Shown one piece after another: positions 2,491-60,733 of a stretch of DNA of 64,000 nucleotides. Both the position numbers and the translations under genes were made by a program. Source of the stretch: a virus. The stretch spans positions 284,223 to 348,222 of the IMG/VR virus record IMGVR_UViG_3300023257_000007. One strand, 5' to 3'. The notes beneath the pieces were generated by a model, which was not told where the DNA came from, searched no databases, and saw only the letters and a list, made by a program, of their open reading frames with translations. Every line of letters starts with the position of its first letter. Position 1 is the first letter of the stretch.

Positions 2491-2850
2491 TTACAACCAA
2501 AAGTCATCTAATTCTTCTTTTTCTACAATATATTCTTCTGGAACTTTTGTTATTACTTCTATATTTTTAATATCTACTTGAAGGTTTTCTGAATCTTTTA
2601 ATTTCATGAACTCAGTTAGAAACTCATCTATTGTCAAGGTGGTAAAATCAAAATCAGAATTATGGGGTATGACAACAAACTCAAATATATCACATCTTTC
2701 ATCTGAATGATCTTGATTCCATTCCCAAAGTAAATAATTGAGGGATTCGACGTGTATATTGATAGATTCTTGGGGTTTAGAATTTATTTCAAGTATTCTA
2801 AACTCTTTATTCTTTATCTTTTTATATATTTGATTGAAATAGTTTTTCAT
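2491..2850 (-). CDS. Hypothetical protein
   Basis: This 119-residue protein starts MKNYFNQIYKKIKNKEFRIL. Its start overlaps the stop of the upstream gene by 4 bp, suggesting translational coupling. It is mixed alpha/beta in appearance with no recognisable motif. Confidence 0.6.
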   Translation of the reverse strand: MKNYFNQIYKKIKNKEFRILEINSKPQESINIHVESLNYLLWEWNQDHSDERCDIFEFVVIPHNSDFDFTTLTIDEFLTEFMKLKDSENLQVDIKNIEVITKVPEEYIVEKEELDDFWL

Positions 2851-3179
2851 TGTTTTATTCTATCTAATTTTAATTTTCTTTGTTTTCTAATATATTCTTT
2901 ATTAAAACCTTCTTTTGAAATACAATTATATACCCACTCATCCAACTTCTCAATAACATTTTCATCAACATCTTGTCCCTGTACATCTAAATCTGTTAAT
3001 TCAATAATACTATCACCAATATTTTTTATTAATTGTGAATAGTTATAATGGAAATGAAATGTTATTCCTTTTTTCATAAACCACAAATGAACATAATTCG
3101 TAACTTCTGGATGATCATTTAATTCAACTTTTATACAATATTCTTCTGAATATTTTTTACTTAATTCATTTACATTCAT
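2847..3179 (-). CDS. Hypothetical protein with basic RKQRKLKL tail
   Basis: This 110-residue protein has an ordinary body and ends YIRKQRKLKLDRIKQ. Nearly the same basic tail occurs on otherwise unrelated proteins at 15352 and 50166, with looser versions elsewhere. The tail may bind nucleic acid or serve as a sorting signal (inference). Its start abuts the upstream stop at 3179. Confidence 0.65.
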   Translation of the reverse strand: MNVNELSKKYSEEYCIKVELNDHPEVTNYVHLWFMKKGITFHFHYNYSQLIKNIGDSIIELTDLDVQGQDVDENVIEKLDEWVYNCISKEGFNKEYIRKQRKLKLDRIKQ

Positions 3180-15351: not shown

Positions 15352-15723
15352 TTATTCATCCTTAACCCTTTCCAATTTTAATTTTCTCTGTTTTCTTAAT
15401 AAAGCCTTTTTATATTTTTCATAATCATTTCTATTAACAGTTTGATTATAAAAATTACCATATTCTTCACTTATTAAGTCTTCTTTAAAAATAACATACA
15501 AAAGCATTACATAATTATCTTCAAGTATACCAATTACTTCACCCTTTTTTGAAAGTTTATCTACATATTTTTCAAATAATTCTACATCTATATCAATCAA
15601 AACATTGCGAATATTTTCTAAATCATCTATTAAAGGTTGATTCCAATTATCCAAAGTCATTTTGTTTTTTGAATGATTAATGAACTTATCTAAAATTTCT
15701 TTACTGTTTACCATTTTTAACAT
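15352..15723 (-). CDS. Hypothetical protein with basic RKQRKLKL tail
   Basis: This 123-residue protein is helical and ends LLRKQRKLKLERVKDE, the basic tail also seen at 2847 and 50166. The Met at residue 4 (MVNSKEILDK) is the more likely start. Confidence 0.6.
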   Translation of the reverse strand: MLKMVNSKEILDKFINHSKNKMTLDNWNQPLIDDLENIRNVLIDIDVELFEKYVDKLSKKGEVIGILEDNYVMLLYVIFKEDLISEEYGNFYNQTVNRNDYEKYKKALLRKQRKLKLERVKDE

Positions 15724-20989: not shown

Positions 20990-22186
20990 TTAATTTGAAC
21001 CAATAGTTATTAATTCTGGATGAACAGCACACCCTCTATCCCATTTAAATTCTGGGACTACTTTTTTTAATATATTATATGATGCGTTTAAATCAGCATT
21101 TATTAATATGTTTTCTTTACTTTTAAACATACCCCTTGAAACCCTTTTACCACAATATTCTTTATGTTTTTTTAATTCTTCACCATCAATAAAAGAACAT
21201 TTACTTGTGAAACTTTCTTCATTTAATTTAACATTCAAACCTTCTTTTAATGCTTTATATTCAATCATTTGAATTAATTTATAAAAAGGTATTTGAACAA
21301 AATTTTGATTATTCTTCTTACCCATATTTACATTTTGTTTCCAACTTTTATTATAACCAATAATTATTGTATTTAAATCATTTTTTAAACAAAAATCAAC
21401 CAAATATTTAGATGCATTATGTAAGTAATTATTTATTTTATTATTTCTTTTTTCAGTTAATAAATATAACCTTTTACTTATAAAAGTTTTCTTTGGTAAT
21501 TTTGATTGTAATTTAGACAACTTTTTATTATAATATTGATTAATTGATTTTAATGGTCTACCGTTAATGATTATAGGTTTTACAACCTTTTCATTTGAAG
21601 TTATAGCCATTAAATTATTTACACCTAAATCAACACTACAATATTTACTATTGTCTAACTTTAAAGGTTTTTCATCATATTTATATACTATATTTATTTT
21701 ATATTTTTTTGTTTTAAGTGGTTTTACCTGAACCTCAATTATTTTTTTACTTTTATTTTGAAATGGTAATTTAATACCTGTTTTATATAATTCTATATAA
21801 CCTTCCTTTTCAAGATTTTTAGTTTTTACAGCATTATCCACCAAAATGGCTGTAAATTTACTATTTTTAGGTAAATATTTAGGTAAATTTGGTTTACCAG
21901 TAAATCTATTTGGATTCTTTTTCCATTCTTTCATAGCGTTAAAAAAACTTTTCCAATTTGCATTAAGTATTCTTAGTGTTGGTCTAGCAATTCTAGATAA
22001 TAAATCTTTATATTCTACGTGATCTTTCATAATGGTATACATATCATATACTGTAATATAATTACCATGATTAATAAATTCCTGTCTGATAATGTAGTTA
22101 GCTTTATTGTAAAGATTTTTGGTTTTAACACAAATATCGTTTAAATTATTGTTATTTTTAATTATATGTGATTCAATTAAATACAA
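20990..22186 (-). CDS. tnpB: TnpB-family RNA-guided nuclease, rearranged RuvC site
   Basis: The protein has 398 residues from a TTG start. RuvC-I is SVDLGVNNLMAI with D186 and RuvC-III is NADLNASYN with D365. At RuvC-II the usual glutamate position is G277 (IIIGYNKSWKQN); a glutamate in NEESFTSK (E323/E324) probably replaces it, as in a known TnpB subgroup. The normal CxxC zinc pairs are absent. No tnpA is nearby. A phage promoter motif lies 30 bp upstream, so the gene is expressed with phage genes. It would cut DNA guided by an RNA from its own 3' end. Confidence 0.85.
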   Translation of the reverse strand: MYLIESHIIKNNNNLNDICVKTKNLYNKANYIIRQEFINHGNYITVYDMYTIMKDHVEYKDLLSRIARPTLRILNANWKSFFNAMKEWKKNPNRFTGKPNLPKYLPKNSKFTAILVDNAVKTKNLEKEGYIELYKTGIKLPFQNKSKKIIEVQVKPLKTKKYKINIVYKYDEKPLKLDNSKYCSVDLGVNNLMAITSNEKVVKPIIINGRPLKSINQYYNKKLSKLQSKLPKKTFISKRLYLLTEKRNNKINNYLHNASKYLVDFCLKNDLNTIIIGYNKSWKQNVNMGKKNNQNFVQIPFYKLIQMIEYKALKEGLNVKLNEESFTSKCSFIDGEELKKHKEYCGKRVSRGMFKSKENILINADLNASYNILKKVVPEFKWDRGCAVHPELITIGSN

Positions 22187-27456: not shown

Positions 27457-27858
27457 ATGAAACATTTAAAAACATATGAAAATATAAAAGATTTTGACAA
27501 AAATAAAGAAGATCTAATAAAAATGACAGTTAAATATCGAAATGAAATTGCTGATAAAATTTATAGTCTTGAAAAATATACCAAATCTAGAATAATAGAA
27601 ATACCATTTAATTCTCATCCTAAATATGATTTAATAAGAATTGAATGGTGTGATGTTGAAAAGATGACAAGTTTTGATATTGATATTGATATTTGTGCTG
27701 TTGGTGAAGGTTTAAACCACCTTGTTTTTTGGTTAAACCAAGGAAAAATTACTAAATCTCGTAATTTTAATAAGAAAGTTTACGATGAAATTATAAAAAC
27801 TATAATGGACGATAATTTAGAACAATATTTAATATCAAATAGAATGGGATTATTATGA
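27457..27858 (+). CDS. Double-tagged phage protein
   Basis: This 133-residue protein begins MKHLKTYENIKDFDK and ends ISNRMGLL, carrying both tags. The body has a beta-rich part (IDIDICAVGEGLNHLVFWL). It is convergent with the gene at 27860 and 1 bp apart. Function unknown. Confidence 0.75.
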   Translation: MKHLKTYENIKDFDKNKEDLIKMTVKYRNEIADKIYSLEKYTKSRIIEIPFNSHPKYDLIRIEWCDVEKMTSFDIDIDICAVGEGLNHLVFWLNQGKITKSRNFNKKVYDEIIKTIMDDNLEQYLISNRMGLL

Positions 27859-41292: not shown

Positions 41293-42369
41293 TTATATAT
41301 TAAACTCCAAATCCAATTTTTCTAAAATATTTTCATCGTATCTAATTCTTAATAAATCAATACCATTATCATTACAATATTTGGTTTTTATTAAATCATT
41401 CTCTTGCCTATATTTGAGTCCTTCATCGCCATTCCAATATTCAACAGACTTAAAATGTTGAGCACCATCATATTCAACACACATATTTAATAAAGGTAAA
41501 TAAAAATCAAATGGTAAAGGTTTTATATTCCTACAATCATCAAACCTTTTTTGAGATTCATATTCAATATTATTATCTTTTAAATATTTTTCAATCAATA
41601 ACTCCTTCTTACTTAACCTACATTTTGGACAACCATTACCTGTTAAATGTTCATAAGGAACTTGTTCAAAAATACCATGAGTAGAACATGTTATTTTAAC
41701 TTTTGTATTAGCATTTTTATAATCAACTAAAGAATAATTATACCTTAAATCATGTTTTTTATTAGCCTTTTCTATAAACTCTTCAGTCGTAAATCGTACA
41801 TTATTAGCACATTTAGGACAACCAGTTTTTTTATTAATATGGTTATCAGGTGTTTGTTCAAAAACTCCATGTTCTTCACAAATAATTTTAATCTTTGTTG
41901 TAGTATTCTTATATTCAACTAAAGAATAATCATATTTATCTCCATGTATATCAATGGCTTTTTCTATAAATTCTTCTGTCGTTAATTTTTTATTACCAGA
42001 ACAACTAGGACAACCTCTTCCAAATAAATGTGATTTTGGAATTTGTTCAAAAACACCATGTTCTTTACAAATAATTTTAACTTTTGTAATATTATTTTTA
42101 TAATCAACTAAAGAATAATCATATCTATTGCCATGTGTTTTAATAGATTTTTCTATGAAATCTGTAGACCTTTTAGAATCTATACCACATTTAATACAAT
42201 TTTTACCACTTAAATGACTACTTGGTTTTTGTTCAAAAACACCATGAACTTTACAAATAATTTTAATTTTTTTATTCGCACCAATATAATTAACTAAAGA
42301 ATAATCGTACCTATCTCCGTACAATTTCTTGGCTTTTTCTATAAATTTTTCTGTCGTTAATTTTCTCAT
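41293..42369 (-). CDS. DUF723-repeat mobile endonuclease with Vsr-like domain
   Basis: This 358-residue protein has four copies of a 55-residue module. The module reads TTEEFIEKA...YDYSLVxYKN, then KIICxxHGVFEQxPxxHL, then GCPKC, typical of DUF723-type DNA-binding repeats in homing endonucleases. The C-terminal nuclease has LPFDFYLPLLNMCVEYDGAQ and HF, then a helix and LLRIRYDE. It is probably a free-standing homing endonuclease that inserted beside the cargo island. Confidence 0.85.
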   Translation of the reverse strand: MRKLTTEKFIEKAKKLYGDRYDYSLVNYIGANKKIKIICKVHGVFEQKPSSHLSGKNCIKCGIDSKRSTDFIEKSIKTHGNRYDYSLVDYKNNITKVKIICKEHGVFEQIPKSHLFGRGCPSCSGNKKLTTEEFIEKAIDIHGDKYDYSLVEYKNTTTKIKIICEEHGVFEQTPDNHINKKTGCPKCANNVRFTTEEFIEKANKKHDLRYNYSLVDYKNANTKVKITCSTHGIFEQVPYEHLTGNGCPKCRLSKKELLIEKYLKDNNIEYESQKRFDDCRNIKPLPFDFYLPLLNMCVEYDGAQHFKSVEYWNGDEGLKYRQENDLIKTKYCNDNGIDLLRIRYDENILEKLDLEFNI

Positions 42370-42381
42370 ATATCTTATATA

Positions 42382-42410
42382 AAAAATCCCACCTAAAAGA
42401 TGGGATTTTT
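42382..42410 (-). terminator. Intrinsic terminator
   Basis: A 10-bp stem, AAAAATCCCA with its complement around a 9-base loop, lies 19 bp beyond the stop of the VWA-protein gene at 42429. Confidence 0.8.
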
Positions 42411-42428
42411 ATTAATTTTATTCTAAGA

Positions 42429-43865
42429 TTACATCTTATCAATCAATATACGCTTTCCAAATGTTAAATTACTAGGATCATCATTATGGGAAACAATCCA
42501 AATTACTCTATTGCTGAAAGTACTGTAGCGTCTTCTGTCAGGACAATCCCCAAGAGCATCTGTAAAATATATCATAAATGCTGGTTGCAGTCCCTTCTTT
42601 ACCAAGTTATCCTGAATCCAGTCAAACGGGGGAGTAAATCTTGTTCCACCGAAACCTTGAGGTCTTAATTTATCAATTTTAAATTTATTTCTTGTACTAA
42701 ATTCTTGTACACCACAAATATCATAATCACACCATATAACATGACATTTTTTAATACCTCTATTCTTAAAAATAGCATGTATTTCAGATGCAAACTTATC
42801 TAAATCATCTTCACTAATAGATCCAGATGTATCAATAGCAATAACAACGTTATTGTAATCTGATTTTTTCTTATTTAATCCCCATAAATAATCACCTCTA
42901 CTAATAGCACGTCTCTGTGGTAGTTTATGTTTTAATTTACTATAAATATTAGCAACAAATTTTCTTAATTCTGCTTGCCAATTTACTTTAGGTTTTGAGA
43001 TTTTTCTTAAAAATCTCTGCATATTAGCACTACCGAAACCTTGATTCTTAGATGAAGCATCTCTTACGATTTCACCCCATACTTGTTTCATTTTTTCATC
43101 ATTTCCTTTAGCGCCTTGTAATTCTTTGTTTCCTGATTGTCCAGCAGTTCCACCACCTTGTCCAGGTTTTCCTTTTCCTTTTCCTTTTCCTTGTCCGTTT
43201 CCTTCGCCTTCGCCTTCTCCTTCACATTCTCCTTCACATTCTCCATCATCATAAATATCAATACCACCACTTAATGAACCAGGGGCTTGAATATCAGAAC
43301 CAAGACCATCCATAAGTTGTTTAATAAGTTCTTTCTTTTTTTGTTTGTTTTTTTCCCATTCTGGTTCTAATTCAGCATAAATTTGTTCAGTACTCCAATC
43401 TTTATATTTTTCTTCATAAAGAACTTTCTCTGGCATTTTACCAATACCTTCTAATAATAGGTTAATAGCATAATCACCTGAAATATTCCATAATTCAGGA
43501 TCTCTGCCTAAACCTCTATCAAAATGGAATAATGCATTATGCATAATTTCATGACATAGAACAAATACACATTCTTCTTCACTTAATTCATTAGCAAAGT
43601 CACTATTATACATGATTGATAAACCATCAGTTGCCATAGTTGTAATTCTAGGGTCTGTGGCTTGTTTAATTTTAAGATTAAATAATAAATCAGCAAAGAA
43701 ACCGTAGTTTGCTACGATAACCATAATACATTTTCTTATCTTTTTCCAAGCTCTATCATCTAATTTTTTCTTCTTATCATCTGATTTTTTTTGCTTATCT
43801 TCTTCTTTATCTTCTTTTCCTTCAACAATAGAAGCAAATTTGCAATATCGTTCTAATTTTCCCAT
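42429..43865 (-). CDS. VWA-like protein with metallopeptidase-type N-domain
   Basis: This 478-residue protein has an N-terminal domain with HEIMH at 105-109 (DUF2201-type putative metallopeptidase). A Gly/Glu/Lys low-complexity linker follows (about 208-240), then a VWA-like domain with DTSGS at 345-349. This architecture normally works with a MoxR-family AAA+ ATPase, and one is present at 44292. The pair would remodel or insert a metal in a target protein. The target is unknown. Confidence 0.85.
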   Translation of the reverse strand: MGKLERYCKFASIVEGKEDKEEDKQKKSDDKKKKLDDRAWKKIRKCIMVIVANYGFFADLLFNLKIKQATDPRITTMATDGLSIMYNSDFANELSEEECVFVLCHEIMHNALFHFDRGLGRDPELWNISGDYAINLLLEGIGKMPEKVLYEEKYKDWSTEQIYAELEPEWEKNKQKKKELIKQLMDGLGSDIQAPGSLSGGIDIYDDGECEGECEGEGEGEGNGQGKGKGKGKPGQGGGTAGQSGNKELQGAKGNDEKMKQVWGEIVRDASSKNQGFGSANMQRFLRKISKPKVNWQAELRKFVANIYSKLKHKLPQRRAISRGDYLWGLNKKKSDYNNVVIAIDTSGSISEDDLDKFASEIHAIFKNRGIKKCHVIWCDYDICGVQEFSTRNKFKIDKLRPQGFGGTRFTPPFDWIQDNLVKKGLQPAFMIYFTDALGDCPDRRRYSTFSNRVIWIVSHNDDPSNLTFGKRILIDKM

Positions 43866-43890
43866 ATTTTTAGTTTTATTTTCTTAAAGA

Positions 43891-43900
43891 TATATATTAT
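43891..43900 (-). promoter_or_regulatory. Near-match phage promoter motif
   Basis: TATATATTAT is one base off the motif complement and lies 25 bp before the ATG at 43865. Confidence 0.35.
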
Positions 43901-43930
43901 TTTTTAAAATTAAAAATGTTCAAAATAATA

Positions 43931-44230
43931 TTATTTAGTTACTTTATCTACTAATTTATTTTTTTCTTCTTGATTTAAGTTAGCAAGAATTTCATCATAT
44001 TCATCACTCCACATCTTAATAATTTTCATCATCAATTCATTACCATCTTTTTCAAATGAATTTAAAGATTTTAATATTTTTTTAATTTCTTTAGTTGAAC
44101 CAACAAAATCATTATTTTGAAATATATCAATAACTTTATCTTTTATAATTTCTTCTTTTGAATAAAGACCCATATCAGAAAATGTTTTTTCCTGTTGTGT
44201 GAATTCTTCAAATAATTTTACTTTTTTCAT
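43931..44230 (-). CDS. Leader-bearing hypothetical protein
   Basis: This 99-residue helical protein starts MKKVKLFEEFTQQEKTFSDM, a leader-like start. It lies between the MoxR and VWA genes and could be an accessory factor of that pair. Confidence 0.65.
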   Translation of the reverse strand: MKKVKLFEEFTQQEKTFSDMGLYSKEEIIKDKVIDIFQNNDFVGSTKEIKKILKSLNSFEKDGNELMMKIIKMWSDEYDEILANLNQEEKNKLVDKVTK

Positions 44231-44240
44231 AATTTATATA

Positions 44241-44267
44241 AAAAAAGCCTGTTTAACAGGCTTTTTT
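44241..44267 (-). terminator. Intrinsic terminator
   Basis: The stem AAAAAAGCCTGTT with its complement and a T run lies 25 bp beyond the stop of the MoxR gene. Confidence 0.85.
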
Positions 44268-44291
44268 TTAAATATCTAATTTTTACTTCTA

Positions 44292-45806
44292 TTATGGATT
44301 TAAAATGTCAGCAAATTTGTTATACCATTTCTTAATTGAAGGTACCCAAATTTTCTTCCAAGGATCATCAGTTGTTACATAAGCATGTGTCTTTTTAACA
44401 TATTGTAGTAACGATGTTGCAACTTCCATATTCTCAATTCTTCTTGCATATGTAATTAAATTTTCAAGTTCCTTTGCAGTTAATTTCTCACCTTTTTTAG
44501 CCATACCAATAGCAGCAGTTACCGCTCTAGATCTATCGATTCTTTTTGGTGGCATAGGAGCTTCTTCTGGTTTCTTGTATACAAGAGCAATATCTTTTGG
44601 TGGAAATACTGCCAATAAATCAAGATATTCTGCAAACTGAACAGCTGCAGTATTACCAACATGAGAATTAAATAACTTTTTAATTGCTTCTTTAGATAAC
44701 TGATTTCCTGATGCTTCTTTAGCTTCTGTATATTCTAATGATGCACTTGCCCAAGAACGTGGAGATGGCCAGTTAGGAGTTTCTTTATCAGGATCTAAAT
44801 GATGAAGTATGTCTTTATTGAAATCAATATAACCAATTACGTCAGGATCCATATAATCTTGTTTAATAGCCCATGTCACCCATTCATCTTTTGTTGTAAT
44901 AAGATTATAGTGAGTAAAACGGTTAGCTAGAGCAGTACCTAAATCAGTTACTGTTGGTTCTTCTTCACGTCTATTACCAGCAGCAATAATTAACCATTTA
45001 TCAGGTAATTTATATTCACCAACTTGACCATCAAGACATAGTTGAAGTGAAGCTGATAATACATGCTCATTAGCACGGTTCAATTCATCAAAAAACATAA
45101 TACCACCTTTTCCATTTTCACCATTATCACTAGGGAAAATCTTAGGTAATCTAAATGTCGTTCTTCTTGAAGTGTCTCCTTCAACTTTTACACCAGCAGC
45201 ATCTTTAGTATCTCTACCTTTAACAACTTCAATTTCTGGAAGGCCAATAAAATCAGTAGGCTCAATTGTTGCTAAATGCCATACTAAACAATCAACTTGA
45301 AGTTCTTTGGCTGTTGCATTAATAACATCTGTTTTACCAATACCTGGAGCACCCCAAATAAATGTAGAAAACATTTTATTTGGATATTTTGTCTTCATTT
45401 TAAACTTACGAACAAGAATATTACTCATTTCTGAAGGAACATAATTACCTACTTCTGGATTAGGATGCTCTAAAGGCACCTTATCCTCGTTCATAGCTAA
45501 TTTTGCATCTTCAATTGATAATTCTTCTGTTTCTTCTTCTTCAGAAAGATTATCAATTTCTTTTTCTATTCCTGATATTTTACTTTCATCTGGTTTACTA
45601 CCATATGGAAAAATATCTACTTTACCTTCTAATGCGCCTTTCTTCTTCAAGAAGAGAGCATAATATAACCAAGCAGCTTTTTTAAATTTCTTTTCAAAGA
45701 AATCCCATACTTTGTCGACCATACCACTTATCCAATTTTCGTTAAGTTCGCTATCGTACATGTGCTTTTCGTTTAAAAAGTTCTTGTAATTTACTAATTT
45801 TTTCAT
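44292..45806 (-). CDS. MoxR-family AAA+ ATPase with leader
   Basis: This 504-residue protein starts MKKLVNYKNFLNEKH, with LNE as a possible cleavage site. An extension of about 140 residues precedes the AAA+ core. Walker A GAPGIGKT lies at 152-159 and Walker B GIMFFDELNRA has D240 and E241. Sensor-like AAGNRREEEP and a C-terminal lid follow. MoxR proteins act as chaperones with VWA partners; the gene at 42429 is the likely partner. The leader suggests that the ATPase is packaged (inference). Confidence 0.88.
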   Translation of the reverse strand: MKKLVNYKNFLNEKHMYDSELNENWISGMVDKVWDFFEKKFKKAAWLYYALFLKKKGALEGKVDIFPYGSKPDESKISGIEKEIDNLSEEEETEELSIEDAKLAMNEDKVPLEHPNPEVGNYVPSEMSNILVRKFKMKTKYPNKMFSTFIWGAPGIGKTDVINATAKELQVDCLVWHLATIEPTDFIGLPEIEVVKGRDTKDAAGVKVEGDTSRRTTFRLPKIFPSDNGENGKGGIMFFDELNRANEHVLSASLQLCLDGQVGEYKLPDKWLIIAAGNRREEEPTVTDLGTALANRFTHYNLITTKDEWVTWAIKQDYMDPDVIGYIDFNKDILHHLDPDKETPNWPSPRSWASASLEYTEAKEASGNQLSKEAIKKLFNSHVGNTAAVQFAEYLDLLAVFPPKDIALVYKKPEEAPMPPKRIDRSRAVTAAIGMAKKGEKLTAKELENLITYARRIENMEVATSLLQYVKKTHAYVTTDDPWKKIWVPSIKKWYNKFADILNP

Positions 45807-49933: not shown

Positions 49934-50185
49934 ATGAAAATATTACAACGTAAATTTGTAACGAGATTAATAGGAGTTCCTAATTGGAAATATTATGGTT
50001 ATGAATATTGGGATGTTGTTCCTGATATTCATAAACAAACTTTAGAAATTGAACATAATACAAGAAGTGGTAAATTCAGAATTTATATTGACAGAGATGA
50101 AATTGAAGTAATAAAATACGAAGAAGAATTAGAAGCTATCATAAAAGCTTATAGAAAATATTTAAATGATGATAAAATTAGATAA
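49934..50185 (+). CDS. Hypothetical protein
   Basis: This 83-residue protein, MKILQRKFVTRLIGVPNWKY onward, has a beta-rich middle and a helical end. It overlaps the next gene by 20 bp. Confidence 0.6.
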   Translation: MKILQRKFVTRLIGVPNWKYYGYEYWDVVPDIHKQTLEIEHNTRSGKFRIYIDRDEIEVIKYEEELEAIIKAYRKYLNDDKIR

Positions 50186-50597
50186 AGATTATGTGATAAT
50201 TTGGGGTGCAAGAACTCATAATGGTTATGTGTATCGTAAAGAAGAATTTCCAGTTGATATTGAGAAAGAATTTTATGTCATGTCTGAATATTCTAATGAT
50301 TTTAAATTAAAAAATATATGTGCAATGACAAATGTATGTATTGATAATATTGGTTTTTATGTAGAAAATTTCAGATTTATAGATACACAAATAGGCAAAA
50401 TATGTAAAAAACTTGGTGGTTTAGGTATAAAACAATATATTCATACACAATCTATGGGTTCACATTATAGTGATACAACAACGGTTCACAAATTAATTGG
50501 TTTTTATATATCACCGGTTTCAATGTATGATAATTTACCAGCTAAAATAATAAAGAAACAAAGAAAATTAAAATTAAATAGAATTAAAAATGCATAA
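50166..50597 (+). CDS. Hypothetical protein with basic RKLKL tail
   Basis: This 143-residue protein ends IIKKQRKLKLNRIKNA, the basic tail also found at 2847 and 15352. ATG 50169 is an alternative start. It overlaps the next gene by 8 bp. Confidence 0.65.
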   Translation: MMIKLDKDYVIIWGARTHNGYVYRKEEFPVDIEKEFYVMSEYSNDFKLKNICAMTNVCIDNIGFYVENFRFIDTQIGKICKKLGGLGIKQYIHTQSMGSHYSDTTTVHKLIGFYISPVSMYDNLPAKIIKKQRKLKLNRIKNA

Positions 50598-57147: not shown

Positions 57148-57462
57148 ATGTTAATATTTGATGATTATAATGATTTTGTCAAAGGAGTTAAAAAACATTT
57201 TCCTAATGCAAAAGATTATCCAAACGCAAAAGATATTTGTAAATATAGTTACATAATCTTACATCTAAATACAGATGAAAAAATGATGAAAATTGTTGAA
57301 AAACATGCCAAAAATAAAGAAATTAATGAATATTTACCAGTGTATTGTTTATATAATGAAACTAAAAAATGTGAAGAATATTGTTGGTTAAACAATAAAT
57401 GTAAAAAATCTATAAATAGATTCGAAAGAAAAAGAAAAATAAAAAGAATAAAATATGAATAA
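57148..57462 (+). CDS. Cys-containing protein with basic tail
   Basis: The 104 residues have four Cys near the end (CLYNETKKCEEYCWLNNKC). The protein finishes FERKRKIKRIKYE, a loose form of the basic tail. It overlaps the next gene by 8 bp. Confidence 0.6.
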   Translation: MLIFDDYNDFVKGVKKHFPNAKDYPNAKDICKYSYIILHLNTDEKMMKIVEKHAKNKEINEYLPVYCLYNETKKCEEYCWLNNKCKKSINRFERKRKIKRIKYE

Positions 57463-57817
57463 AAAAGTATATATTGCATCACCATACACAAAAGGTAATC
57501 AACTAGAAAATGTAAATGTTCAAATGGATATGTATTATGAATTAGTACAATTAGGATTTCTACCATTTACACCATTATACTCACACTACGTACATGAAAG
57601 AAATCCAATATCTTATGATAAATGGATGGAAATTGATTATAAATGGATTGACGTATGTGATTATATTTTAAGATTGCCTGGTGAAAGTAAAGGTGCAGAT
57701 TTAGAAATTGAATATGCTAAGAACCAAAACAAAATAGTATTTTATAGCGTTGAAGAATTAACAAATTATATTGAACCTAAACATTTAGATGAAGGTGACA
57801 TACATATAAGTTGTTAA
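57455..57817 (+). CDS. DUF4406/nucleoside deoxyribosyltransferase-like protein
   Basis: This 120-residue protein has VYIASPYTKGN, then LGFLPFTPLYSHYVH, YDKWMEIDYKWIDVCDYILR and SKGADLEIEYAKNQNK, the usual order of this Rossmann-like family. The catalytic-type Glu is in DLEIEYA. Likely acts on nucleosides or nucleotides. It lies just before the dUTPase gene, which fits a nucleotide-metabolism cluster. Confidence 0.75.
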   Translation: MNKKVYIASPYTKGNQLENVNVQMDMYYELVQLGFLPFTPLYSHYVHERNPISYDKWMEIDYKWIDVCDYILRLPGESKGADLEIEYAKNQNKIVFYSVEELTNYIEPKHLDEGDIHISC

Positions 57818-57833
57818 AAAATAAAAAAAGATA

Positions 57834-58376
57834 ATGATTAGAGGATTTGAAATTGTTTCTGATGAACACAGAAAACATGAAAATGTACAACTACCATTAA
57901 GGGGTAGTGAAGATTCAGCTGGATATGATTTTTATTCAAATGAAACACATATAATAGAACCAGGTGATCAAAAAGTTTTTTGGACTGATATCAAAGCTTA
58001 CATGCAAAAAGGTGAAGTTCTTAAAATATATGTTAGAAGTTCGATTGGTATTAAAAAAGGACTTAGATTAGCAAATCAAACTGGGGTAATTGATTGTGTT
58101 CCAAAAGGAACTAAAATTAAAATTAAAGATGGTGAAATAAATGTTGAAGATTTATTGGACAAAAAAAAAATTATTATATCTTATAATGAAGAAGAAGATG
58201 AAATAGAAGAAGATGAATTAAAAGAAATATGGATCGTAGATGATCTGGAATTATTAGAAATTGAGACAGAAGAAGGTGACTCAATTAAAATACCCTTTGA
58301 AAAAGAGGTATATACTGAAAGAGGATGGATTAAAGCAAAAAATCTAACTCTTGATGATAAAATATTAACATATTAA
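57834..58376 (+). CDS. dut: dUTPase N-terminal part fused to N-half of a split intein
   Basis: The protein has 180 residues. Residues 1-87 are dUTPase: motif I EDSAGYDFYS, motif II VRSSIGIKKG and the start of motif III TGVID. At Cys88 an intein N-half begins (CVPKGTKIKIKDGEINVEDL) and runs to residue 180, ending TLDDKILTY. The C-terminal part is encoded at 59729-60028. Joining 1-87 to residues 38-99 of that product gives a 149-residue trimeric-type dUTPase, normal length. It hydrolyses dUTP to dUMP and keeps uracil out of DNA. Confidence 0.92.
   Translation: MIRGFEIVSDEHRKHENVQLPLRGSEDSAGYDFYSNETHIIEPGDQKVFWTDIKAYMQKGEVLKIYVRSSIGIKKGLRLANQTGVIDCVPKGTKIKIKDGEINVEDLLDKKKIIISYNEEEDEIEEDELKEIWIVDDLELLEIETEEGDSIKIPFEKEVYTERGWIKAKNLTLDDKILTY
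58095..58373 (+). other. Split intein N-half (IntN), 93 residues
   Basis: It starts at Cys88 and ends at the stop codon. Block A is CVPKGTKI. The block B region is IKIPFEKEVYTERGW; the usual TxxH has become PxxK, so the block-B Thr and His are both replaced. The insertion point is the active-site motif III of dUTPase, typical of inteins. Confidence 0.88.
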
Positions 58377-58640
58377 ATGGAAAACAAAAAATTAAATAAT
58401 CTAACAAATGCAGCTAATGATTATAATAAAGGTTTAAACGATTGTGCAATAGTCGATATTAATTCAAATTTAGATTTAATTGAAAAAATTGAATTAGATA
58501 AAAGTATTAAAGAATCTTTAATACATGCACACAAAAGATTAATAGACATTTTAAATGGTGAAATAGACTTGAATGAAGAAGATTATTTGATCTATATTTC
58601 ATATATACAAGAAATAATTGCAGATTATAGATTAAATTAA
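58377..58640 (+). CDS. Small protein between the dUTPase halves
   Basis: This 87-residue protein starts MENKKLNNLTNAANDYNKGL at the base after the dUTPase N-part stop. It is helical and acidic, with no endonuclease motif. It may be a passenger or an accessory factor of the insertion. Confidence 0.65.
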   Translation: MENKKLNNLTNAANDYNKGLNDCAIVDINSNLDLIEKIELDKSIKESLIHAHKRLIDILNGEIDLNEEDYLIYISYIQEIIADYRLN

Positions 58641-58668
58641 AAAATTAACATAATTCCAGTATTAATGT

Positions 58669-58678
58669 TTAATATATA
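58669..58678 (+). promoter_or_regulatory. Phage promoter motif for the homing endonuclease
   Basis: TTAATATATA lies 23 bp before the ATG at 58702, so the endonuclease and the dUTPase C-part can be transcribed apart from the N-part. Confidence 0.5.
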
Positions 58679-58701
58679 TTATTAAATAAATAATTTTAAC
58701 G

Positions 58702-59748
58702 ATGGAAATATTATGTAAAAATTGTGGTAAATCTTTTAAAGTTGCCAACTGGCAAATTAAAAAAGGAACAAAATATTGTTCTCATGAGTGTTATTGGGAA
58801 GATAAAAGAGGCGGTAAGAAAAAAGAAGAAAAGGTATGTATAGAATGTGGTGAGAAATTCTTACAAGAAACTTGGGAAAGTAAAAGAAAATTTTGTTCTC
58901 ATGAATGTTACTGGAAAAATAAAAAAAAACTAAAAGATATTGATTGTTTGAATTGTGGTAAAACATTTGAGCCATATAATTTAAAAACAAAATTTTGTTC
59001 TAAAAAATGTTCAGGTGAATATATAAGAAAACAAAACAATAAAATCTGTATTCAATGTGGAAAAGAATATCATCCATTAATTAAAACTTCTCAATATTGT
59101 AGTAGAGAATGTTATTGGAATTATAGAAGAGAAAACAAAGGTGTAATAATACAAACGAATCAAGGTGATTTTAGAACAAAATTAATATGTAATAATTGTG
59201 GAAAAGAATATTTAGAACATAAATATAGATTAAAAGTTTCTAAGTTTTGCTCAATGAAATGTCATTTTGAATCTAAGAGATTAAAGAAAAAATGTCCAAC
59301 ATGTGAAAAATATTTTGAAGTTCCAAATCACTTAGCACATCGAATTTTTTGTAGTAAAGATTGTGTAGATTTTACAAATAAATCTAAAAAAGAAAATGAC
59401 TTTTATAAATTTGTTAACAACATAATAAATGTAGAACAAAATAAAAAGGTTATATATGACAAAGTTTATTTTCCAGATTTAATGAATGAAGAAAACAAAA
59501 TAATAATTGAATTTTTTGGCGATTATTGGCATTGCAATCCTAATTTCTATGAAGATGAATATTATAATTCAAAAACAAGAAAACATGCACACGAAATGTG
59601 GAGCGATGATCAATTAAGATTAGAAAAATTAGAAGGATTAGGATATGATGTTAATATTATTTGGGAAAATGAATGGGAAACTGATTTAGAATTAGTTAAA
59701 ACAAAAATATTAAAAATAAAAGATAAATATGAAATACGTAAAAATTAA
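58702..59748 (+). CDS. Free-standing Vsr-like (EDxHD) homing endonuclease
   Basis: This 348-residue protein has six or so C4 zinc modules (CKNCGKSFKVANW...YCSHECYW and variants) in residues 1-225. The C-terminal nuclease has YFPDLMNEENKIIIEFFGDY, then WHCNPNF, then WSDDQLRLEKLEGLGYDVN and IIWENEW, the Vsr-like EDxHD core. This endonuclease type is linked to split inteins in fractured phage genes. It lies between the two dUTPase halves, and its last 20 bp overlap the C-part start. Confidence 0.9.
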   Translation: MEILCKNCGKSFKVANWQIKKGTKYCSHECYWEDKRGGKKKEEKVCIECGEKFLQETWESKRKFCSHECYWKNKKKLKDIDCLNCGKTFEPYNLKTKFCSKKCSGEYIRKQNNKICIQCGKEYHPLIKTSQYCSRECYWNYRRENKGVIIQTNQGDFRTKLICNNCGKEYLEHKYRLKVSKFCSMKCHFESKRLKKKCPTCEKYFEVPNHLAHRIFCSKDCVDFTNKSKKENDFYKFVNNIINVEQNKKVIYDKVYFPDLMNEENKIIIEFFGDYWHCNPNFYEDEYYNSKTRKHAHEMWSDDQLRLEKLEGLGYDVNIIWENEWETDLELVKTKILKIKDKYEIRKN

Positions 59749-60028
59749 AAGAATAGAAAAATGTGAATCAGAACCGATTTATCATTTAACAATTAAAAAT
59801 AATCACAATTTTTTTGGTAATAATTTATTGTTACACAACTGCGATTATTTTGGAAATTCCAAAAATGACGGAAATATTGGTGCTTGTTTATGGAACCCAA
59901 CAAACGAACCAATTACTATTAAAAAAGGTGAAAGAATAGTTCAAGGTATATTTGAATTGTTCTTAGAATCTGATAACTGTAACACCAAAAAAGAAAGAGA
60001 CGGTGGAATCGGTTCAACAAATAAATAA
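59729..60028 (+). CDS. dut: C-half of split intein fused to dUTPase C-terminal part
   Basis: The protein has 99 residues. Residues 1-37 are the intein C-half (VKIKRIEKCESEPIYHLTIK, then NNHNFFGN and NLLLHN with the penultimate His and final Asn). Cys38 is the +1 residue. Residues 38-99 supply the rest of dUTPase: CDYFGNSKNDGNIG completes motif III, GERIVQGIF is motif IV, and RDGGIGSTNK is motif V with the Phe of GFGS replaced by Ile. Confidence 0.92.
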   Translation: MKYVKIKRIEKCESEPIYHLTIKNNHNFFGNNLLLHNCDYFGNSKNDGNIGACLWNPTNEPITIKKGERIVQGIFELFLESDNCNTKKERDGGIGSTNK

Positions 60029-60034
60029 CAAAAT

Positions 60035-60241
60035 ATGAAAAACGGAAGTATTTTAGGAAAACTCTTTCCTACACAAAATGATTTAATGAATCATCTATCT
60101 GAATATGGAATGTTAACAGATAAACAAATAATTGAGCGATCATCCCAAGGTGGTGGATTAAATACAGAAGAAGCGTTAATGCTTACTTTGGAAAGAGATT
60201 TCTGCAAAGATGTTATTGATAATATAATCAATAAAAAATAA
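60035..60241 (+). CDS. Small hypothetical protein
   Basis: The 68-residue protein begins MKNGSILGKLFPTQNDLMNH and has a Gly patch SSQGGGLNTEEA. It lies 6 bp downstream of the dUTPase C-part. Unrecognised. Confidence 0.6.
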   Translation: MKNGSILGKLFPTQNDLMNHLSEYGMLTDKQIIERSSQGGGLNTEEALMLTLERDFCKDVIDNIINKK

Positions 60242-60251
60242 ATAACAAAAT

Positions 60252-60470
60252 ATGAAAACAGAACAAATAATTACAGAATTGAGTAAAGCATCAGAAAATG
60301 AAGACTACAAACGAGGCTGGATTGCGAATATAGCAATGTCTCAATTAGATAATGAACGTTGGTATAGAGAAAAACATAATAAAGTTGGTAAATATTTAAA
60401 TAGTAAAGACAAACATGCTATTGCAAACTTAGGTGCAGAATATTTTATTGAATTACTTACAAAAAAATAA
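60252..60470 (+). CDS. Small hypothetical protein
   Basis: The 72-residue protein, MKTEQIITELSKASENEDYK onward, is helical. It lies 10 bp after the previous gene, in the same run. Confidence 0.6.
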   Translation: MKTEQIITELSKASENEDYKRGWIANIAMSQLDNERWYREKHNKVGKYLNSKDKHAIANLGAEYFIELLTKK

Positions 60471-60475
60471 TAATT

Positions 60476-60733
60476 ATGAAACTAAAAAAATTTATTGAAA
60501 AGTTTGTTGAACCTAATACATTAATTAGGTTACAATACAAAATAAAAGGTGGACACGAAGAAGTAGGTAATCTAGGAATGGAATGGGAGTTAAAGGATGG
60601 ACTGTTTGCTAACCATAGAGTTGTAGGTATAACAGACATACTTGTACGTGGTAATTACACAGAAGCAGTTAATTTGGTTATTAAAAGAAAAAACAAAATA
60701 AATAATTATGTATATATTTTCATACGGGAGTAA
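60476..60733 (+). CDS. Hypothetical protein
   Basis: The 85-residue protein begins MKLKKFIEKFVEPNTLIRLQ and has a Gly-rich turn region. It overlaps the GGCT-like gene by 26 bp. Confidence 0.55.
   Translation: MKLKKFIEKFVEPNTLIRLQYKIKGGHEEVGNLGMEWELKDGLFANHRVVGITDILVRGNYTEAVNLVIKRKNKINNYVYIFIRE

Follow-up and report, generated by a model that had tools for sequence, protein, structure and literature searches.

The 64,000-nucleotide stretch of viral DNA analyzed here, the window, forms the last part of a 348,222-bp virus record (IMG/VR record IMGVR_UViG_3300023257_000007, bases 284,223–348,222), and at 57834–60028 it very probably carries a fractured dUTPase gene: two open reading frames (ORFs), each encoding part of the enzyme and part of a split intein, separated by the gene for a homing endonuclease. 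The mobile cassette—N-terminal intein fragment (IntN), endonuclease, C-terminal intein fragment (IntC)—is inserted immediately behind the motif III catalytic aspartate; the enzyme would be made whole by trans-splicing, and the cassette would spread by homing. An earlier note on this DNA had proposed such a gene, split inside its active site, and profile matches, comparison with the solved dUTPase PDB 3h6x, and exact coordinates all agree with it. The sequence itself demonstrates the anatomy of the locus, its membership of a family, purifying selection, and lateral transfer whose limits coincide with the splice junctions. The locus has what distinguishes fractured genes: two host ORFs bearing IntN and IntC, a free nuclease ORF between them, intein-less alleles, and mobility.

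The N-half ORF (57834–58376; plus strand, as for every part of the locus) encodes 180 amino acids (aa), namely dUTPase residues 1–87 followed by the 93-aa IntN. The C-half ORF (59729–60028) encodes 99 aa, the 37-aa IntC followed by 62 aa of dUTPase. The N-extein (57834–58094; PF00692, phrog_135, NF010561) contains motifs I to III as far as the motif III aspartate (TGVID), which we take to be the equivalent of Asp90 of the Escherichia coli enzyme; the C-extein (59840–60028; PF00692, PDB 3h6x) starts at Cys+1 (CDYFGN) and contains motifs IV and V (GERIVQ and GGIGST). A profile search of both halves, which the earlier note had proposed, finds dUTPase and intein matches on each: PF00692 (E 1.9e-8) and phrog_135 (2.6e-25), and after these TIGR01445 (intein N-terminal region, 6.8e-4), on the N-half; PF14890 (Intein_splicing, 3.2e-6, at the end of the profile, 120–155), then PF00692 (6.2e-6), on the C-half. 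PF00692 scores above its cut-off for both dUTPase halves. The closest solved dUTPase, PDB 3h6x, aligns with the N-half through chain residue 86 (E 5.7e-11) and, directly after that point, with the dUTPase portion of the C-half (1.7e-9). Joining at D|C gives a predicted dUTPase of the trimeric type, of 16.8 kDa and the 149 residues anticipated earlier, in which motif III is normal and all five motifs—AGYDF, RSS, NQTGVID, GERIVQ and GGIGST—follow in order; the peptide across the predicted splice junction, in the TGVIDCDYFGN region, is LANQTGVIDCDYFGN. Two uninterrupted relatives (loci L004 and L005), 67% identical in the N part, read GIID-M/S-DYFS at the window's insertion site.

IntN (58095–58376, stop codon included) starts with Cys1 (CVPKGTKI), and IntC (59729–59839), which shares 20 bp with the endonuclease gene, ends in LLLHN and matches TIGR01443 (E 0.0085) as well as PF14890. 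These residues confirm that IntN ends the N-part, and that an IntC finishing in His-Asn, followed by Cys+1, opens the C-part. A fold search with the model of IntN returns inteins (the structure model of the N-half is poor over the dUTPase part, and was used for IntN only); the IntN profile of the family described below matches the solved inteins Spl DnaX, Ssp DnaB and NrdJ-1 (alignment A4), and IntC aligns with those of 13 other split dUTPases (alignment A3).

Two genes lie between the halves. The first, the small one of which the earlier note spoke, is an 87-aa ORF (58377–58640) with no assigned function and no significant match in Pfam, PHROG or NCBIfam; it was found in this virus only, the IMG/VR scan returning just the identical contig described below. 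The second (58702–59748) encodes 348 aa. The N-terminal two thirds of this protein, which matches phage 'HNH endonuclease' families (phrog_1271/2308), contains treble-clef or zinc-ribbon-like repeats with six CxxC motifs—there are 25 cysteines in the whole protein—and the C-terminal part is an EDxHD/Vsr-like domain. A search of the PDB by sequence gave weak zinc-finger-type matches only, so a fold search was needed, and Foldseek, applied to a model of moderate confidence (predicted local distance difference test, pLDDT, about 65–86 over most of the domain), placed the homing endonuclease I-Bth0305I first (3r3p; prob 0.97, E 0.11, TM-score 0.69 by target length) and Vsr (1vsr/1cw0) next. The presumed catalytic core, E270..D274..H277..W300xxD303 (59509–59610; EFFGDYWHCNP...WSDD), falls in invariant columns of a nine-sequence alignment; E270, D274, H277 and D303 are the same in all nine relatives. 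These results support the description of the window's nuclease as a Vsr-like EDxHD endonuclease.

EDxHD nucleases are found in group I introns too (I-Bth0305I, PMC3943268), and the interruption might be imagined to act at the level of RNA instead, as a group I or group II intron to which the nuclease belongs. We consider this extremely improbable: Rfam finds no match in 57400–60500, the junctions are in frame and fall exactly at Cys1 and after the terminal Asn, and in 30 alleles both intein halves are encoded as protein, with their splice residues conserved. Misassembly was considered and rejected. A second IMG/VR contig (L003), probably the same virus from another sample, is identical to the window's locus over 10,540 bp with zero mismatches, and 29 other alleles have the same split layout.

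The earlier note observed the fractured gene correctly but saw it as a single case, which it is not. IMG/VR was scanned with both halves, up to 80 loci being listed per scan; duplicates were removed, and an allele was taken to be a dUTPase N-part running into IntN together with an IntC running into a dUTPase C-part. By this count there are at least 30 distinct split-dUTPase alleles, the window's included, and sequence evidence of homing among them; 27 of the 30 have a nuclease gene. Nearly all (28/30) are split after the motif III aspartate (G-x-V/I-D|C), and two, L143 and L173, one codon later (V/I-D-N|C). Cys1 is present in every allele, as is the terminal Asn, and His-Asn in 29 (GN in L075). 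The +1 residue is Cys in 28 split alleles and Ser in two; Cys occupies this position in five of about 55 uninterrupted dUTPase genes compared, some of them near-identical to each other, and from this excess in occupied genes it follows that the +1 codon is either co-converted or selected.

The EDxHD nuclease occurs in 10 of the 30 alleles, the window's among them. The type named in the earlier note is thus right for the window's lineage, but a second nuclease family was missed: 17 alleles encode a different protein with the pattern VPDF...IIEMKG, which we label, cautiously, PD-(D/E)xK-like. Its matches to DUF1064, Phage_endo_I and the TnsA N-terminal domain—presumably all members of the PD-(D/E)xK clan—are weak and below threshold. 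The remaining three alleles (L165, L170 and L172) have no nuclease and are still split, their separate ORFs about 65 bp apart. When the 30 inteins are placed in a tree beside nine from other genes, all 30 fall beyond one branch (support 91/85), and they form two clades corresponding to the two types of nuclease (support 100/96 and 95/99); two apparently unrelated nuclease families appear, from these sequences, to serve a single intein family.

Some further details of these loci may be recorded here. Nearly all PD-type IntCs (L018, L024, L034, L042–L045, L065, L075, L078) have a conserved Cys after NHNFF, whereas the EDxHD-type IntCs have Gly or Ala. The C-half of L020 (2076–2246) has an IntC identical to that of L018 and lacks about 44 dUTPase residues past the junction; either the allele has decayed or the assembly is at fault. 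In L018 (499–1404), L048, L058, L061 and L072 an EDxHD-like nuclease gene stands alone about 2 kb upstream of the dUTPase, and it is found in genomes both with and without a dUTPase intein.

Strong evidence that the cassette has spread laterally by homing comes from comparison of alleles. The exteins of L113 and L116 differ substantially, with synonymous divergence (dS) of 0.71 and 0.60 and amino-acid identity of 75% and 73%; their cassettes are identical or 99% identical, with dS of 0.018 for IntN, 0.014 for the nuclease and 0 for IntC, and DNA identity steps up and down at the two splice junctions. The same step at the splice junctions is seen, at lower identity, between L042 and L045, and most of the cassette is less synonymously diverged than the N-extein in the pairs L034/L041 and L018/L020. 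Split and uninterrupted genes are mixed in the dUTPase tree, whose well-supported branches force at least eight changes between the split and empty states. The window's own dUTPase groups with the uninterrupted L004 and L005, and its intein groups with those of L113 and L116 (100/100), whose dUTPases lie far from the window's. In the eight less diverged pairs of the PD lineage, the ratio of non-synonymous to synonymous divergence (dN/dS) is 0.09–0.21 for IntN, 0.10–0.22 for the nuclease and 0–0.36 for IntC; these low values imply that the splicing parts are being kept by purifying selection.

The call of an intein stood, but the intein is not canonical, and this the earlier note did not see. 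At block B (58293–58304) the window has PFEK in place of TxxH, so that, in alignment with Spl DnaX and Ssp DnaB, the histidine is replaced by Lys157 of the N-half. The pattern by type is uniform: P..K in all 10 EDxHD alleles, and T..S or T..T in all 20 others, whether PD-type or nuclease-free. In the family profile T-x-N-T stands opposite TGNH of Spl DnaX and TANH of Ssp DnaB, and the His is retained in split inteins that the same scans turned up in other genes, such as those of ribonucleotide reductase (TPDH) and DNA ligase (TGNH). The loss is most simply explained, from this distribution, by one or two ancestral events, as against 30 independent ones. These are class 1 inteins in their Cys1, their C-terminal His-Asn and their Cys or Ser at +1, and depart from that class at TxxH. 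Class 3 was rejected as an alternative: Cys1 is never absent, and the F-block position is Asp or His, with no Cys (YDIT/YHLT; alignment A3).

Several points weigh against the interpretation offered here. The block B His is missing from all 30 alleles; the PF14890 and TIGR01445 scores are under their curated cut-offs; dN/dS between the window and L113 is 0.43 for IntN and 0.58 for the nuclease, at high divergence, for which reason selection on the window's own allele is judged mainly from its relatives; the 348-kb record is not a closed genome, so that a second dUTPase might lie outside it; and that the halves trans-splice, that the nuclease cuts the empty site and that the enzyme is active are things that we infer. 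Within the record itself, no second trimeric dUTPase (PF00692) and no PF08761 dUTPase was found, and the situation that the earlier note thought would count against it—an intact dUTPase elsewhere, with these halves decayed—does not obtain there.

Might the intein be dead, then, and the halves never splice? The block B His is the single most highly conserved intein residue (PMC6333167), it is lost throughout this family, and splicing is here a prediction from sequence. We nevertheless think a dead intein unlikely. IntN, IntC and both dUTPase halves are under purifying selection in the relatives; Cys1, the terminal Asn and Cys or Ser at +1 are kept without exception and the penultimate His with one; the cassette has been transferred, intact, recently; and a very small subset of inteins without the His exists, in which a bulky residue at –1 is able to compensate (PMC6333167). 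Since the set of catalytic residues is incomplete, it is purifying selection and homing that make the case for competence in splicing. The –1 residue in this family is the catalytic Asp of dUTPase, or Asn in L143 and L173. In the absence of the His, the N–S acyl shift would probably be helped by Lys in the window's lineage, and by Ser/Thr or by strain in the other. On balance we lean, with some reserve, toward a mobile family that would trans-splice without the block B His, using Lys or Ser/Thr instead, possibly aided by the –1 Asp, and that is served by two unrelated kinds of nuclease.

If the fractured-gene interpretation is right, events at this locus might run as follows. The two precursors, 20.9 kDa for the N-half and 11.3 kDa for the C-half, would be translated separately from the neighboring genes; IntN and IntC would associate, fold together as a single Hint domain and excise themselves, joining VID to CDYFGN and so restoring motif III in a dUTPase of full length. 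The enzyme would be inactive beforehand: the cut parts the catalytic Asp from the Tyr that follows it in motif III, and so, judging from the dUTPase family, no activity is expected before splicing. The target of the EDxHD nuclease is most likely the uninterrupted dUTPase gene of a co-infecting phage, cut at the conserved site, and repair of the cut would then copy the whole cassette into that gene. Dependence of activity on splicing is also what one would expect of a post-translational switch, one that delays dUTPase until both halves have accumulated and is no tolerated parasite, and the three nuclease-free alleles that stay split fit such a switch too. We hold it to be very unlikely; the cassette is patchily distributed among close relatives and bears the marks of homing, as a selfish element is predicted to.

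The same virus has a second fractured gene, encoding a DNA polymerase B cut at YGDTD|S (L135, 1107–4306, minus strand; 42106–45305 of record G000:C1), with IntN, an EDxHD-like nuclease and IntC, and a further EDxHD-like ORF just upstream. The record starts with the C-half of a fractured SbcC/Rad50-like gene (L134, 1–3101, plus strand; G000:C1, 1–3101), whose IntC ends HN|SSLRQ, with an EDxHD-like nuclease in front of it; the corresponding N-half was not found. Elsewhere among the scanned loci, an ATP-dependent DNA ligase is fractured in its active-site motif, KLDG|CRA (L117, 3409–5846; also L119, L120 and L121), with a nuclease ORF between the halves and an IntN that keeps TGNH.

The window has other features as well. 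A 1611-aa phage protein (36188–41023, minus strand) has a Por_Secre_tail sorting domain at its C terminus (E 4.3e-15), pointing to a host among the Bacteroidota that has type IX secretion. Many small, unrelated proteins share the start MKYLKTYE or MKTYExF, with N-x-M/L-GLL as a frequent ending (for example at 27457, 31125, 46811, 51804, 52106, 54765 and 55160); we take these starts to resemble the capsid-targeting peptides of T4 internal head proteins. Several unrelated small proteins (2847–3179, 15352–15723 and 50166–50597) have in common a C-terminal tail like RKQRKLKLxRIK, and a 398-aa protein (20990–22186, minus strand) looks, by eye only, like a TnpB/OrfB-type transposon nuclease.

The earlier note knew of no dUTPase host for such an intein, and we found no precedent for one in those parts of the literature that our search covered. 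Nor did tblastn with three N-parts and one C-part find a split dUTPase among 50,697 INPHARED phage records: no match covered 80% of any query, and so none spanned the dUTPase–IntN or IntC–dUTPase junction over its length. One limited degenerate-pattern scan of prokaryote genomes gave only a weak archaeal match outside the junction. Genes fractured at a split intein are already known; dUTPase as host and family-wide loss of the His appear new, and two nuclease types on one intein family are a new feature. In 2009, Dassa reportedly described fractured genes with split inteins, and nuclease ORFs between the halves, in viral metagenomes. The window's gene resembles those in that a split intein divides it and a nuclease ORF—EDxHD/Vsr-like in the window's lineage—lies between the halves, and the family differs from them in its host gene, in lacking the block B His throughout, and in the PD-(D/E)xK-like nuclease of most alleles.

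The MIJ3 PolB split intein (PMC6892783) also belongs to a jumbo phage and a fractured gene with a nuclease ORF between the halves, but its host gene is different, position 1 is Ser, the nuclease is HNH, and block B, VTEDHS, keeps the His. AceL NrdHF (PMC7891396) is likewise a fractured gene of phage-like metagenomic origin, whose intein has unusual catalytic residues; that intein is class 3, however, with a branching internal Cys and a GIY-YIG endonuclease, whereas the dUTPase inteins have Cys1 and no F-block Cys. Tko CDC21-1 (PMC6333167) shares the missing His, so that another residue, or strain, must assist the N–S acyl shift, but it is archaeal and has a bulky Leu at –1, where the dUTPase inteins, a whole mobile split family, have Asp or Asn. 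The window's nuclease, finally, resembles I-Bth0305I (PDB 3r3p) and Vsr in its predicted catalytic fold and in conserved residues of the E-D-x-H-D type; unlike I-Bth0305I, it has a long N-terminal zinc-finger-like array and resides in a split-intein gene, not a group I intron.

With this finding, dUTPase joins the genes that host fractured split inteins, in an element whose mobility is documented in sequence, with boundaries at the splice junctions. Thirty alleles without the block B His are natural material with which to study activation of the N-terminal junction, so far examined in very few inteins, and split inteins that lack this residue and are mobile all the same may serve as orthogonal ligation tools.
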